This document shows positions 3,270-24,402 of a stretch of DNA of 64,000 bases, piece after piece. Each line of letters opens with the position of its first letter. Within the stretch, counting starts at the first letter, position 1. Source of the stretch: an uncultured Actinomycetes bacterium (GTDB lineage Bacteria; Actinomycetota; Acidimicrobiia; Acidimicrobiales; RAAP-2); NCBI GenBank assembly GCA_903828785.1, contig CAIKNP010000009.1, positions 40,993-104,992 of the forward strand, given 5' to 3'. Below the pieces are notes generated by a model. The model saw only the letters and a program-made list of their open reading frames with translations. It ran no database searches and was not told the origin of the DNA. The translations under genes and the position numbers were made by a program.

Positions 3270-5654
3270 CTATTCGTCACCTTGCGGGGCGGCCACAATC
3301 TCGTAGCGGGGGTTCAAAATTACCGCCTCGCGCCGCTGGCTGGAAACGGTACCCTTCACCATTAAACGAGTGCCCCGTTCGATCCCCGGTATCGTGCTGC
3401 GGCCTTGAAAAACGAGGGTGACCGAACCGGTGTTGTCGGCAATGACGCAACGCAAGTCCGTCGTTCCGTCCTCGCGAGCGACGGTCATGGCGCGTACTCG
3501 CCCAGCGATTTCGGCTACTTGCCGCTCCTGTAAATCACCAATGGGATCGGCCCCGACCGAGCGTTCGGCCAACTTCACGTCGGCCTCGAGATGGGCGTCT
3601 TCGCGTCGGCCGCCGCGAGCCACCTCATCACTGAGGGGGGCCTCTTGTTTGGCTCCATCACTGACCTGCACTCGCGTCGCGCGGTAGGGGATAATCGTGG
3701 CGGCCGTCCTCGGAATCTGCATCACGGCGGTCGCAATGGAGTCGGCGGTGCGGTCGTGCAGGAGGCGTTGTAAACGAGAGACAAAACTTCGCCGCGGCAT
3801 GATGGCCATGCAGAAGGTTTCCGGATCACGAACAACGTCGGCAACTAACTCCATCGCGGCTCGATCAATGCGACGGTCCTCGCAATCCACTACGTCGAGG
3901 TTGATGGCGGCGGATGCCGTGTTTTCCTTGCCCCACATGCTTTCGAGTCGCTTGGTGACCAGGGGGTCAATGTCGAAGTGCACCGCTCGCACGCTGTAGG
4001 CGTTCAGCGTCTTGCAGTACTGCAGGGCTCGTTCGGTGGCGAGGTCGTAATTATCAACGAAAACGATGACGCGGGTGGTGCGGATGCTCATCGAGGCGCC
4101 CGCCGCGGTGGCCTCGAAGGCCGCGTGCTCGCGCACGTATTGCTTGTTAAAGCGAATCAGAGCGAAGTACATGATTGGCCCGACGACCGCGATGACCCAC
4201 GCCCCTTGCTTGAACTTGGCCACCAGGAAGATGATCACGACCAAGGACGTGACGCAGGCGGAGAAGGCGTTGAAGAAAACACCGCGGCGCCAGTGACGGG
4301 AGCGCTCGCGTAGGTGTAACTTCACCATGCCGAGGCCGGCCATGGTGAAGCCCGTGAAGACGCCAATGGCGTACAGGGCAACGAGACCGTTGACGTTGGC
4401 GTTGAAGGCGAGGATGAGGATAAGCGAAATGACACCGAGCACGATGATGCCATTGGAAAAAGCCAAGCGATGCCCGCGCTTGGTGAGCTGGCGGGGCAAG
4501 TAAAAGTCGGTGGCGACGTAATTAGCCAGGAAGGGGAAGCCGTTGAACGAGGTGTTACCACCGGTGTACAGAATTGCCACGGTGGCGAATTGCACAATGA
4601 GGAAAATAACGTGACCGCTGGCCGAGGATCCGAACACCGCTCGGACTTCCTGGGAAACCACCGTGGGGGTCCCCGCCGCGAAGGGCACTGCGTGAGTCCA
4701 CTTGGCCAGCAGCGCCGTCCCCAGCAACAAGAAGCCCAGCACCGAAGCCATCACCAGCAGCGTCTGGCGAGCGTGAACCGACTCGGGCTTGCGGAAACTT
4801 CCCACCCCGTTCGAAATTGCCTCCAGCCCCGTCAGTGAGGAGCCACCGTTGGCGTAGGCGCGCATCAAACTGATGAACGCCAGTCCCATCAGAACGCCGG
4901 TGCCCGAGTGGCCGAAATGACCGTCCACGAGTAGCGAGGGCTTCGGGAGTGGGAGGGCGTGGAGGGTGCCATTGAACTTGCGGTAGTAACCAGCGAGGAT
5001 GGTCGCCCCGAGGGCCAGGACGTAGAAATAGGTGGGGAAGGCGAAATAACTCCCGGCCTCTTTGAGGCCGCGCAGGTTCCCGTAGAGCAAGATCAGCACA
5101 ATGCCTACGGTTATCTGCAGGGTGTACGGCGCGAGCGCGGGCACCGCGCTCGTCAAGGCGGCGGTTCCGGCGGAGCACTGCACCGCCACCGTCACGGTGT
5201 AGTCAATGAGCAGGGCCACCGCCGCGATCTGCGCAACCTTTGGTCCAAAGTTCTCCCGGGCCACCACGTAGGAACCGCCGGCCTGGGTGTAGTACTTGAT
5301 CACGTCCCAGTAGGAAATGGTCACGAAGATCAAGACCCCGATAATCACGAACATGATGGGCACCACGAGCGCGAAGGCCGCCATCCCAATGAAGGGCGTC
5401 ATTTGCGTCAAGATTTCTTCGGTACCGTAGGCCGACGAAGAAATGCAGTCGGGAGCCAAGACTCCCAGCGCCACGACGCGACCGAGGCGCTCCCCGGACA
5501 ACTGTTCGCTGACGTAGGGCTTTCCGAGAAAGAATCGTTTGAGTCGGTAACCCAAAGGCTCGGGAAAGACCTTGGCCAAATTGGCGTGAGAAGTGAGAAC
5601 GAGCGAGTTCTTAGCGAGCTGCTTATCTGCTTCTGACACGCTACCGACCTTCAA
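3270..5654 (-). CDS. APC-superfamily permease with C-terminal OB-fold domain
   Basis: N-terminal multi-TM APC permease (SSAYGTEEIL, YTQAGGSYVVARENFG); C-terminal ~100 aa IGDLQERQVAEIAGRVRAMTV...LRCVIADNTGSVTLVFQGRSTIPGIERGTRLMVKGTV resembles an OB-fold nucleic-acid-binding domain. Confidence 0.88.
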   Translation of the reverse strand: MKVGSVSEADKQLAKNSLVLTSHANLAKVFPEPLGYRLKRFFLGKPYVSEQLSGERLGRVVALGVLAPDCISSSAYGTEEILTQMTPFIGMAAFALVVPIMFVIIGVLIFVTISYWDVIKYYTQAGGSYVVARENFGPKVAQIAAVALLIDYTVTVAVQCSAGTAALTSAVPALAPYTLQITVGIVLILLYGNLRGLKEAGSYFAFPTYFYVLALGATILAGYYRKFNGTLHALPLPKPSLLVDGHFGHSGTGVLMGLAFISLMRAYANGGSSLTGLEAISNGVGSFRKPESVHARQTLLVMASVLGFLLLGTALLAKWTHAVPFAAGTPTVVSQEVRAVFGSSASGHVIFLIVQFATVAILYTGGNTSFNGFPFLANYVATDFYLPRQLTKRGHRLAFSNGIIVLGVISLILILAFNANVNGLVALYAIGVFTGFTMAGLGMVKLHLRERSRHWRRGVFFNAFSACVTSLVVIIFLVAKFKQGAWVIAVVGPIMYFALIRFNKQYVREHAAFEATAAGASMSIRTTRVIVFVDNYDLATERALQYCKTLNAYSVRAVHFDIDPLVTKRLESMWGKENTASAAINLDVVDCEDRRIDRAAMELVADVVRDPETFCMAIMPRRSFVSRLQRLLHDRTADSIATAVMQIPRTAATIIPYRATRVQVSDGAKQEAPLSDEVARGGRREDAHLEADVKLAERSVGADPIGDLQERQVAEIAGRVRAMTVAREDGTTDLRCVIADNTGSVTLVFQGRSTIPGIERGTRLMVKGTVSSQRREAVILNPRYEIVAAPQGDE

Positions 5655-5734
5655 CCTATCTTCTCTAGAGGCGTCCTCAGTCTACGACGACCCTCGTAGT
5701 TGCGTGTGCAGTGCGAATGTGGTGAGATGATGGA

Positions 5735-6388
5735 GTGCACATTGTTGTCGTCGGCTGTGGCCGCGTAGGGTCCAGTTTGGCAATGCAGTTGTCCGAGCAG
5801 GGACACTCAATCGTCATCATTGACAAGAATCGCGAGGCATTTCGTCGCCTCACCGCTTTCGATGGTCGCGCGCTGGTCGGCTCGGGCTTCGATAGAGAGA
5901 TCTTGGCGAAAGCGGAAATCCAAAACGCCGACGCCTTGGCCTCGGTGACGCGCGGCGACAATACCAACATTCTCTGCGCGCGTATCGCCCGCGACAATTT
6001 CGGTGTGAAGAACGTGGTGGCGCGAATTTACGACTCGCAGCGCGCCAGTATTTATCTGAAACTCGGAATTCCCACGGTGGCCTCGGCCCTGTGGACCACC
6101 CAGCAAGTTCGCCGTTACATCATGCCCGACGAGAACGCCGTAAGTTGGACCGACGTCAGTGGCGGTCTGCAACTCGTCGAACGCTTGGTGCCCGATGCCC
6201 TGGCCGGAAAGCCCTTAAGCACGATGGCCTTGGGCGACAACGTCCGGCCGGTAAGTCTGCTCCGCGGGGGTGTCGCTCGCGTGGCAATTGATGGGCTTTT
6301 CGCCCAAGAGGGTGACGTCGTGCAATTCATGGTTACGGGTGAAGGCCTCAAGTCCCTCACCAGCTTGTTAAACGGTGGTGAGTCATGA
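5735..6388 (+). CDS. Potassium uptake protein TrkA family (RCK N/C), first copy
   Basis: MHIVVVGCGRVGSSLAMQLSEQGHSIVIIDKN Rossmann motif; paired with second TrkA. Confidence 0.93.
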   Translation: MHIVVVGCGRVGSSLAMQLSEQGHSIVIIDKNREAFRRLTAFDGRALVGSGFDREILAKAEIQNADALASVTRGDNTNILCARIARDNFGVKNVVARIYDSQRASIYLKLGIPTVASALWTTQQVRRYIMPDENAVSWTDVSGGLQLVERLVPDALAGKPLSTMALGDNVRPVSLLRGGVARVAIDGLFAQEGDVVQFMVTGEGLKSLTSLLNGGES

Positions 6389-7053
6389 GAGTAATGATCG
6401 CGGGTGGTGGATCGGTGGGTATCGCTATTTCCCTCGACCTCGTTGACCGTCATCACGACGTGGTGCTACTCGAACAAGACCCCGCCGTGGCCGAGAAATT
6501 GCGTAGCCAACTCCACAGTGTTGACGTCGTGACGGCGGACGCCTGCGAGTACTCGAGTTTGGCCAACGCCGACTTACGCACCGTGGACGTCGTTATCGCC
6601 GCCACTGGTGACGACGAAGACAACTTGGTCATTTCCTGGTTGTCCAAGCAAGAATTTGGTGTACCGCGCGTCATTGCGCGTATCAACAACTCCCGAAACG
6701 AGTGGCTCTTTGGTCAGTCGTGGGGAGTGGACGTGGCCGTTTCCACGCCCGCGCTGATCACTTCCTTGGTGGACGAGGCCGTCGAAGTGGGCTCCATTAT
6801 CAACCTGATGGACCTCGCCCACGGCAAAATGACCTTGATCGAAGTAACGCTCACGGCGTCGGCGCCCGCCGTGGCGGAGAAGAAGACGCTGGATGAATTG
6901 GTCTTATCCGACTCGGTTCGGGTAGTGGCCGTGGTGCGAGCCGAACAGCCGATGGTCCCCCAAGGATCCATGCGCTTTCTCGAGCACGACCACGTCATTT
7001 TGCTCGCTCGGGCGGACAGCGCCGGCGACTGCGCCTCCGCCTTTGTCGGCTAG
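6385..7053 (+). CDS. Potassium uptake protein TrkA family, second copy
   Basis: MRVMIAGGGSVGIAISLDLVDRHHDVVLLEQDP; 4-bp ATGA overlap with upstream trkA. Confidence 0.93.
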   Translation: MRVMIAGGGSVGIAISLDLVDRHHDVVLLEQDPAVAEKLRSQLHSVDVVTADACEYSSLANADLRTVDVVIAATGDDEDNLVISWLSKQEFGVPRVIARINNSRNEWLFGQSWGVDVAVSTPALITSLVDEAVEVGSIINLMDLAHGKMTLIEVTLTASAPAVAEKKTLDELVLSDSVRVVAVVRAEQPMVPQGSMRFLEHDHVILLARADSAGDCASAFVG

Positions 7054-7096
7054 GGGGCCCGAACCCCTCGATTGGCAAGGGCGTAACATACAAGCA

Positions 7097-7858
7097 ATGC
7101 GTGCCGCCTTCTTCGATCTCGACAAAACGGTCATCGCCAAGTCATCCATGGTGGCCCTGGGTCCAGAGTTTCACGCCAGGGGACTCTTGAGTCGCCGAAC
7201 CTTGTTGCGCGGGGCCTTTACGCAGCTACTCTTTCTGCGATTCGGCGCCAACGACGAACGTTTGGACAAAATTCGTCGAGCCGTGCTCAAAGTCACCAAG
7301 GGTTGGGACCACAACGAAGTCCGGCGCTTGGTGGCCGAAACCATTACCGAGGTTATTGAACCGCTCATTTACCAAGAGGCGATTGACCTCATCAATTTCC
7401 ACCTCGCCCAAGGCGACGAGGTCTGGCTGGTATCGATGTCTCCCGCCGAAATCGTGGAGCCCTTCGCCGAGATGCTGGGCATGACCGGCGCCATAGGCTC
7501 GCGAGCCCAGATTGACGAGAATGGCAAGTTCACCGGCGACATGGACTTCGTGTCACACGGAACGAACAAGGTTCTCGCCATCGAAGAAGTCGCGACCAAA
7601 CGCGGCATCGATCTTGATCAGTCCTTCGCCTACAGCGACTCGGCCACCGACATCCCCATGCTTCAGGCGGTCGGACACCCCTACGCGGTGAACCCGGACC
7701 GGGCCCTCGCTCACTTCGCTCACGACCACGAGTGGCCGATTATGAGTTTCACGCATCCCGTTCGGGCGCACGACGGCAAGGCCTCGCGGACGCCCTTCGT
7801 GGTGAGCGCCATCATTCTGGGCATCATGGCCCTGGTGGGCCGATCGCGACGCGATTAA
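7097..7858 (+). CDS. HAD-IB family phosphatase (SerB-like)
   Basis: MRAAFFDLDKTVIAKSS; SDSATDIPML; ORF extends to 7043 but ATG at 7097 fits the HAD motif. Confidence 0.88.
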   Translation: MRAAFFDLDKTVIAKSSMVALGPEFHARGLLSRRTLLRGAFTQLLFLRFGANDERLDKIRRAVLKVTKGWDHNEVRRLVAETITEVIEPLIYQEAIDLINFHLAQGDEVWLVSMSPAEIVEPFAEMLGMTGAIGSRAQIDENGKFTGDMDFVSHGTNKVLAIEEVATKRGIDLDQSFAYSDSATDIPMLQAVGHPYAVNPDRALAHFAHDHEWPIMSFTHPVRAHDGKASRTPFVVSAIILGIMALVGRSRRD

Positions 7859-8808
7859 AGCGTCAGCAAGTCCCGCGCACCGGTGTCCGACGAAGGGTGG
7901 CGTAGTTTGGACATCGCACGGGCCTCAATCTGTCGAATGCGCTCACGGGTGAGGTTCATTTCGGCGCCCACGTCTTCGAGGGTACGAACCTCACCGGCGC
8001 CATCGAGACCGAAGCGCATGCGCAAAATCCGGCGCTCGCGGTCATCGAGCAATTGGAGGAATTTCTCAATTGCGGCCGGCATCATCTTCACCGCAGCCAC
8101 GTCGAAGGGTGATTCGGCGGAGCGGTCCTCGACCACGTCGCCCAGTTCGGCGTCGCCGTCCTCGCGCAGGGGCTCCGACAAGGAGATGGGCTCGGAACGG
8201 AAGCGCAGGGCCTCAATCAGTTTGTCTTCGGGCATCTCACACTCGTCGCAGAGTTCCTTGATGGTCGGTGGACGTCCAAACTTCAGCTCCAGACGCGACT
8301 GCGCCTTCTGCACGCGCGCCAGGGTGTCACCAGCGTGCACCGGGAGGCGGATGGTGCGGCCGGTGTTCGCGATACCGCGCGTGATGGCCTGACGAATCCA
8401 CCAAGTGGCGTAGGTGGAGAACTTGAAACCCTTGCGCCAGTCAAACTTCTCGACGGCGTGCATGAGACCAAGGTTGCCTTCTTGGATCAAGTCGAGCAGC
8501 GGCAGACCTGAGGCCTGGTACTTCTTGGCAATGGAGACGACGAGTCGCAAGTTGGACTGCACGAAGTCCCGTTCCGCTTTTTCGCCGCGGTGAGCGGCGC
8601 GCTTCAGTGCGGCCTTTCGCGTGGGAGTCAGCTTCACGGTCTTGTCCGTTTCGGCACTCTCGAGTTCGGCGCGGGCTTCGCGGCCCTCCTCAATGGCTTG
8701 GGCCAATTCGACTTCGTCATCCTTAGTCAGCAGGGTGTACTGACCAATGTCGGAGAGGTAGAGGCGGACGAGGTCTTCATCGTCGCGATCAACGCGGTCT
8801 TTAGCCAT
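7855..8808 (-). CDS. RNA polymerase primary-like sigma factor (sigma-70 group 1/2, lacks region 1.1)
   Basis: DLVRLYLSDIGQYTLLTKDDEVELAQ; GNLGLMHAVEKFDWRKGFKFSTYATWWIRQAITR; LTRERIRQIEARAMSKLRHP. Confidence 0.95.
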   Translation of the reverse strand: MAKDRVDRDDEDLVRLYLSDIGQYTLLTKDDEVELAQAIEEGREARAELESAETDKTVKLTPTRKAALKRAAHRGEKAERDFVQSNLRLVVSIAKKYQASGLPLLDLIQEGNLGLMHAVEKFDWRKGFKFSTYATWWIRQAITRGIANTGRTIRLPVHAGDTLARVQKAQSRLELKFGRPPTIKELCDECEMPEDKLIEALRFRSEPISLSEPLREDGDAELGDVVEDRSAESPFDVAAVKMMPAAIEKFLQLLDDRERRILRMRFGLDGAGEVRTLEDVGAEMNLTRERIRQIEARAMSKLRHPSSDTGARDLLTL

Positions 8809-8872
8809 TGCGAATTCCTTTTAACTCAGTACCGGAGAAACCGGCACACTGTGTTATACGAGGACCCGCAAC

Positions 8873-9366
8873 CTACGTCCGTGGACCCAGGTGTTCATCC
8901 CACCCCGCGCTCACCAAAATCTCGAGCAGCGACTGCGCAATCAGGGTCAATTGGGTGCTTTCCAGTGGCGGCTGACTCGCCAGAATCCGTCCCGTTTCGT
9001 GCATCGAGGAAACGAGGAAGGACTGACCCTGAGACAGCAGGTGTTGCTGGAGAGGCGTCAAGGGGCCTTGCGCCAAGTCCCTCAGCCAGACGAGCAGACG
9101 CGGACTGAGCAACATCGTGACGCTAAAGAGCGTGATCGCGCCGCTGGGATCCTCCAGAGTGGCGTGCTCCAGCATGCCCGTGATCAGGGAGGACGGCTCC
9201 CCGACGGCGCCGGCGTCGCGAAGCTCCAAGACTCGCTCACCAAAGAGTCGACCCAGTTCGTAGCCGCGCACCGCTAAGGCATCGTTCGTGAAGGTCGGCG
9301 CGCTCCGTCCCAGTTCGGCGTAGAGCGCGGCGTAGAGGCCGGCGAGGTGTTCCCCGTCAGACCACG

Positions 9367-9370
<4 letters not shown>
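8873..9370 (-). CDS. Hypothetical protein, 165 aa, translationally coupled to nadE
   Basis: Complete ORF overlapping nadE stop by 4 bp; no family recognised. Confidence 0.6.
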
Positions 9371-11109
<1,739 letters not shown>

Positions 11110-24309: not shown

Positions 24310-24402
24310 CGAAAGTCCACTCGAGAAGAGGTAGACGAACTGCGATGCGTAATCGCTGACAGTACCGGGTCGGTAACGCTGGTCTTCCAAGGTCGCGGCG
24401 TC
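24310..24402 (+). pseudogene. Remnant of an OB-fold domain (second copy of the domain at 3270-3560)
   Basis: + strand translation RKSTREEVDELRCVIADSTGSVTLVFQGRGVKV versus LRCVIADNTGSVTLVFQGRST in the APC-OB protein; no complete ORF. Confidence 0.7.

Follow-up and report, generated by a model that had tools for sequence, protein, structure and literature searches.

The KimA–OB-fold gene and its neighbours

Translation of the window, the whole 64-kb stretch of DNA analysed here, revealed on its minus strand a frame of 794 codons at positions 3270–5654 that contains no internal stop (Table 1). The preliminary description had reported a single uninterrupted frame joining a permease to an OB-fold domain, without giving its strand, and the reported length and limits proved exact. 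The start is ambiguous: translation could begin at TTG 5654 or at GTG 5639 in the same frame, and several relatives start close to the latter. The two trkA neighbours of the gene, also mentioned in that description, lie on the plus strand as a divergently oriented pair (5735–7053); they overlap by 4 nt, and GxGxxG is present in the TrkA_N region of both.

Table 1. Features of the kimA-OB/trkA locus and their positions in the window
Feature	Position	Strand	Basis or remark
KimA-OB fusion gene	3270..5654	-	794 aa, or 789 aa from GTG 5639; fused in relatives too
KimA-type transmembrane domain, residues ~59-515, ~12 TM helices	4110..5480	-	PDB KimA match, residue mapping, model helices
KimA-type cytosolic alpha/beta domain, residues 526-658	3681..4079	-	KimA alignment to residue 640; strands and helices alternate in the model
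Linker, residues 659-703	3546..3680	-	Mostly low model confidence; evolves faster
OB-fold domain, residues 704-790	3285..3545	-	PF01336, AlphaFold2, Foldseek, conserved motifs
Intergenic region, divergent kimA-OB/trkA	5655..5734	.	Between the two coding regions
trkA1, TrkA_N carrying the dinucleotide motif GCGRVG; weak TrkA_C match below cut-off	5735..6388	+	PF02254 3e-28
trkA2, TrkA_N and TrkA_C, GGGSVG motif	6385..7053	+	PF02254 2.6e-25, PF02080 3.2e-8

The Pfam family AA_permease_2 (PF13520) covers residues 71–481 of the fusion protein (8.6e-19). The original label of an APC permease left unstated that the protein is specifically a homologue of the KimA/KUP-type K+ transporters, not a generic amino-acid APC transporter. 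KimA of B. subtilis was the sole sequence relative in the PDB at E ≤1 (phmmer; E 2.3e-91 over 605 residues, spanning fusion residues 36–640), and the three best Foldseek entries for the permease were all KimA. The residues that coordinate K+ in KimA, D36, Y43, T230 and Y377 (PMC10284832), are all four retained, as D69, Y76, T275 and Y428. From these matches and the four retained residues, we assign the permease as a homologue of the KimA/KUP-type K+/H+ symporters, which would be expected to transport K+. The K+ site and the similarity to KimA disfavour the alternative identity of an amino-acid permease. The fusion protein thus has in common with the KUP-family K+/H+ symporter of B. subtilis (6s3k, 8b70 and 8b71) its sequence, fold, K+-site residues and the position of the cytosolic domain, but it differs from that protein in carrying an additional linker and C-terminal OB-fold and in having a divergent TrkA pair next to its gene.

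The proposal that the C-terminus forms an OB-fold was borne out. The match of the OB-fold family PF01336 to residues 716–786 exceeded the 27-bit cut-off when the domain was searched in isolation (28.8 bits), but not in the context of the full-length protein (24.0 bits); PF01336 also matched 28 of the 28 members of the OB family that were tested. The AlphaFold2 model of the domain is a five-strand barrel (strands 23–38, 41–49, 54–60, 73–83 and 86–98) with a mean pLDDT of 88, for which Foldseek returned archaeal RPA OB domains, PolC, POT1 and RecG as the best hits, with TM values of ~0.7 at most. A profile of the OB family gave only weak matches to PDB sequences, the best being RecG (E 0.022), and neither this profile search nor Foldseek found a nucleotide-binding OB relative. 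Since the model of the full-length fusion reached a pLDDT of only 70 and a pTM of 0.59, we did not interpret the position of the OB-fold relative to KimA.

Alignment of 114 OB sequences showed the strongest conservation at R711, G718, D740, G743, G751, R752, G757, G761, G768, N781 and P782; these positions include a G-R-x4-G-x3-G motif at 751–761 and an N-P motif at 781–782. The conserved positions fall in loops L23 and L34, which have the lowest entropy, and at the N-P motif in strand 5, rather than in L12 and L45, which are among the loops with the highest entropy. Many OB-folds hold nucleic acid through L12 and L45. Such conservation hints at L34 as a surface for a protein or a small ligand. 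The domain has in common with the RecG wedge and archaeal RPA OB-folds (PF01336) the fold and a weak profile similarity, but L12 and L45 are unconserved here and the domain possesses an invariant G-R-x4-G-x3-G loop of its own.

Elsewhere in the window, at 24322–24402 on the plus strand, 28 in-frame residues share 74% identity with residues 727–754 of the OB core, and the similarity extends at the DNA level over ~83 nt. The genes on either side are unrelated, and the fragment seems to be the decayed remnant of a partial duplication of the OB sequence.

Distribution and evolution of the fusion

Both domains were encoded in one frame in 29 of the 30 loci fetched from the same genus, the remaining locus ending at a contig edge; in one further relative (G018), outside these 30, the match stops at residue 692. 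Within the order, at least 10 more families have fused proteins, which also occur in Streptomyces sp. ICBB 8177, two Kitasatospora isolates and Streptosporangiales bins. A stop or frameshift between the domains, which re-sequencing might have disclosed according to the preliminary description, is at odds with this distribution: the many independent fused homologues, isolates among them, rule out a frameshift, a chimera or an assembly artefact.

A FastTree phylogeny built from 144 KimA domains placed all 60 fused KimAs in one clade of 75 rows with a support of 99. The same clade includes nine rows without an OB gene nearby, a Streptomyces group among them, and four rows in which OB is the next, unfused gene. 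The fused label changes seven times on the KimA tree; a single fusion followed by losses fits this distribution, and a count of seven is no proof of one origin. The median dN/dS was 0.15 for the fused OB domain, 0.18 and 0.17 for the transporter and 0.32 for the linker. The OB domain is thus under purifying selection as strong as that on the transporter, which argues that it is not read-through junk.

Some loci have unusual arrangements. One of them (L039, genome G041) contains a tandem pair of fused KimA-OB genes at 5796–10709 with one TrkA pair alongside. In four loci of a single family (L093–L096), OB lies directly upstream of KimA, overlapping it or separated from it by ~25 nt at most, an arrangement that may represent a second, separate route to OB–KimA coupling. 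A record titled as a Bifidobacterium breve MAG (L192) contains KimA and OB of the acidimicrobial type, which is probably due to binning contamination.

Association of the OB family with KimA and TrkA

We searched 397 actinobacterial genomes for the OB family, KimA and TrkH alike, with E-value thresholds of <5e-13, 1e-70 and 1e-20, respectively. The OB threshold keeps out RecG, whose matches (E above ~1e-12, in frames of ~700 aa) were left out of the OB counts. OB was found in 111 genomes, KimA in 142 and TrkH in 214. KimA was present in 108 of the 111 OB genomes (Fisher p 3e-62, on genome counts uncorrected for kinship), and the two lay within 6 kb of each other in 71 of the 73 genomes listing both on one contig. 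KimA and TrkH were anti-correlated, with both present in 32 genomes (odds ratio 0.12, p 2.6e-21, likewise uncorrected for kinship). Among 24 other genomes of the order, TrkH occurred in six of the six without KimA as compared with three of the 18 with KimA (p 6e-4).

None of the 37 genomes examined from the genus had a match to PF02386, the family of the TrkH/KtrB membrane partners; Kdp is frequent in the other species of the genus. The genome containing the window (1.56 Mb, 96% complete) had no match to TrkH, KdpA or Kup; its TrkA pair therefore has no other recognised membrane partner, and, among the families searched, the KimA-OB/TrkA locus is its sole system for K+ uptake.

Of 40 OB neighbourhoods fetched, 35 contained two TrkA frames and 38 contained KimA. 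The five lacking a nearby TrkA pair comprised two fused loci, two short contigs and one locus with OB straight after KimA. By comparison with the 35 of 40 OB loci, only one of 20 KimA loci from OB-less genomes had a TrkA pair (p 4e-10). Taken together, the co-occurrence, the linkage, this contrast in TrkA pairs and the anti-correlation with TrkH suggest that OB, the TrkA pair and KimA belong to a single system. The co-occurrence, the linkage and the frequency of TrkA pairs in OB loci also lend strong support to the earlier Rosetta-stone argument that the joined proteins work together.

The commonest layout, found in nearly all split loci, was KimA<- ->TrkA->TrkA <-OB. A set comprising a permease, two TrkA genes and a stand-alone OB, which the preliminary description had given for mycobacteria, is accordingly the most frequent one among the OB loci surveyed. 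The mycobacterial permease, TrkA and OB genes would follow this order, which makes Rv2690c a putative KimA homologue. In the mycobacterial CeoB-CeoC ‘Trk system’, tandem TrkA_N genes adjoin a permease in what would be the same order; the locus described here differs from it in that the genome lacks TrkH and the OB-fold is fused.

In each of the three OB genomes that have no KimA match (L129–L131), OB adjoins TrkA genes. One of them (L131, genome G365) has a TrkA pair, DUF3159 and OB alongside dut and an RlmD-like gene, and no KimA at this locus; TrkH lies on other contigs of the genome, and the trkA1 frame is apparently truncated. As OB stays there with TrkA and DUF3159 in the absence of KimA, it may contact TrkA rather than, or besides, KimA. 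The DUF3159 (PF11361) membrane protein is encoded between trkA2 and OB in several loci (L119, L115 and L131) and might be a fourth part of the potassium locus. In bins of Chloroflexi and Armatimonadetes (L206 and L212), KimA adjoins a same-strand TrkA pair without OB.

Possible roles of the OB-fold domain

As our best reading, to which we give about even chances, the OB-fold is a docking or regulatory module or subunit that links TrkA to KimA in a three-part K+ uptake system. It rests on the anatomy of the protein, the co-occurrence and linkage of the genes, the association of OB with loci that have KimA as well as TrkA, and the inverse relation between KimA and TrkH. The KUP-type symporter KimA, here with its usual small OB partner fused to the C-terminus, would move K+ inward, and the TrkA proteins, as dinucleotide-binding RCK subunits, would gate it. 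The OB-fold, hanging by a flexible linker below the cytosolic dimer of KimA, would couple the state of TrkA to KimA, probably via its conserved L34 surface and not by DNA binding. KimA, TrkA1/TrkA2 and OB would in this way provide potassium uptake that replaces TrkH-based uptake in many Actinobacteria. Counting against a three-part system are the three OB genomes without KimA at our threshold, the five of 40 OB loci without a TrkA pair, the OB-less Streptomyces subclade within the fused clade and the OB-less KimA–TrkA loci outside Actinobacteria, which on the other hand speak for the pairing of KimA with TrkA. A further proposition, that a LeuT-fold KUP symporter gated by TrkA/RCK via a dedicated OB adaptor represents a new architecture of TrkA-controlled K+ uptake and supplies the membrane component that the actinobacterial ‘Trk’ system has been missing, is plausible but, in our estimation, falls somewhat short of an even chance.

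The OB-fold might instead be a small-molecule sensor in its own right, responding to a nucleotide such as ATP/ADP or NAD(H) and not to c-di-AMP, and gating KimA with TrkA acting separately or additively. Many K+ transporters are nucleotide-gated, and the invariant G-R-x4-G-x3-G loop, with its 94% conserved arginine, could hold phosphate. In addition, the S. venezuelae RCK_C protein Vnz_27460 does not bind c-di-AMP (PMC10117811), so that another signal is needed. However, the sequence and fold searches gave no nucleotide-binding OB relative, and TrkA already provides dinucleotide sites, which makes such a sensor unlikely. Vnz_27460 would adjoin Vnz_27465, to judge from the locus-tag numbers; the latter is one of the KimA-like proteins recorded in Streptomyces (PMC10117811). 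Sensing of c-di-AMP itself, by the OB-fold or by the fusion protein, had been suggested by the preliminary description, which named this nucleotide as a candidate ligand. c-di-AMP inhibits B. subtilis KimA (PMC10284832), the synthase is present in many other families of the order, and the residues retained include the equivalents of R337 and H579 in the c-di-AMP pocket and of Y118 and N237 in the transmembrane domain. Most of the pocket residues checked are nevertheless replaced (P479 by F, V506 by F, F565 by M, F568 by R, N580 by D, Q581 by R and S582 by T), so that the inhibition site, a feature of KimA and not of all KUP proteins, is not conserved here. Moreover, the c-di-AMP synthase (DAC) domain was found in none of the 37 genomes of the genus by a search that did detect it in the positive controls and in 21 of 24 genomes from the rest of the order. 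The absent synthase and the largely substituted pocket disfavour c-di-AMP sensing in the genus, and we regard it as highly improbable.

Binding of single-stranded DNA or RNA, by which the protein would tether nucleic acid at the membrane or moonlight in RNA/DNA metabolism, agrees with the best fold and profile matches, RPA, POT1, PolC and the RecG wedge, all of them nucleic-acid-binding OB-folds. The stand-alone OB proteins are mildly basic (median net charge +3), and the aromatic residues at 749 and 784 are conserved. Yet the family is linked to potassium genes and not to DNA repair, it is joined here to a membrane protein, the L12 and L45 loops vary and the net charge of the fused form is near neutral (median +1); we therefore consider a nucleic-acid-binding role quite improbable. 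The fusion could also be passive, reflecting operon proximity only, with the OB-fold as a folding or assembly aid that has no regulatory part. Overlapping or adjacent unfused KimA–OB pairs (L033, L036, L193 and L194) indicate that fusion can follow adjacency, and some Streptomyces of the fused clade have no OB around KimA. The tight phylum-wide tie of OB to the combination of KimA and TrkA and the equal purifying selection speak against a passive role, which we hold to be decidedly unlikely.

The preferred reading, that of a three-part system, bears on how actinobacterial TrkA pairs are understood. Such pairs, CeoBC for example, are described as complete K+ transporters even though RCK proteins act as gates in the cytosol. 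The linkage reported here points to a KimA-like membrane partner for them and to OB as a third component, so that the proposal can be tested directly. The pattern across the hundreds of related bacteria surveyed, in which OB nearly always lies beside KimA and the TrkA pair, indicates an overlooked three-part potassium-uptake system and, if it is true, to what would be, to our knowledge, a new c-di-AMP-free control of a KUP symporter.

We found no paper in the open-licence literature that treats KimA, a TrkA pair and OB as one system. In M. tuberculosis, CeoBC is described as the Trk transporter, and after deletion of Kdp and Trk an unidentified importer was sought elsewhere (PMC13163235); this and two other M. 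tuberculosis papers (PMC6375644 and PMC12136442) give neither TrkH nor KimA/Rv2690c as the membrane partner. A Streptomyces OB-fold protein (cluster 13947) syntenic with trkA is already on record (PMC13118837). It has a similar domain in the same potassium neighbourhood, but in the gene described here that domain is fused to the transporter.
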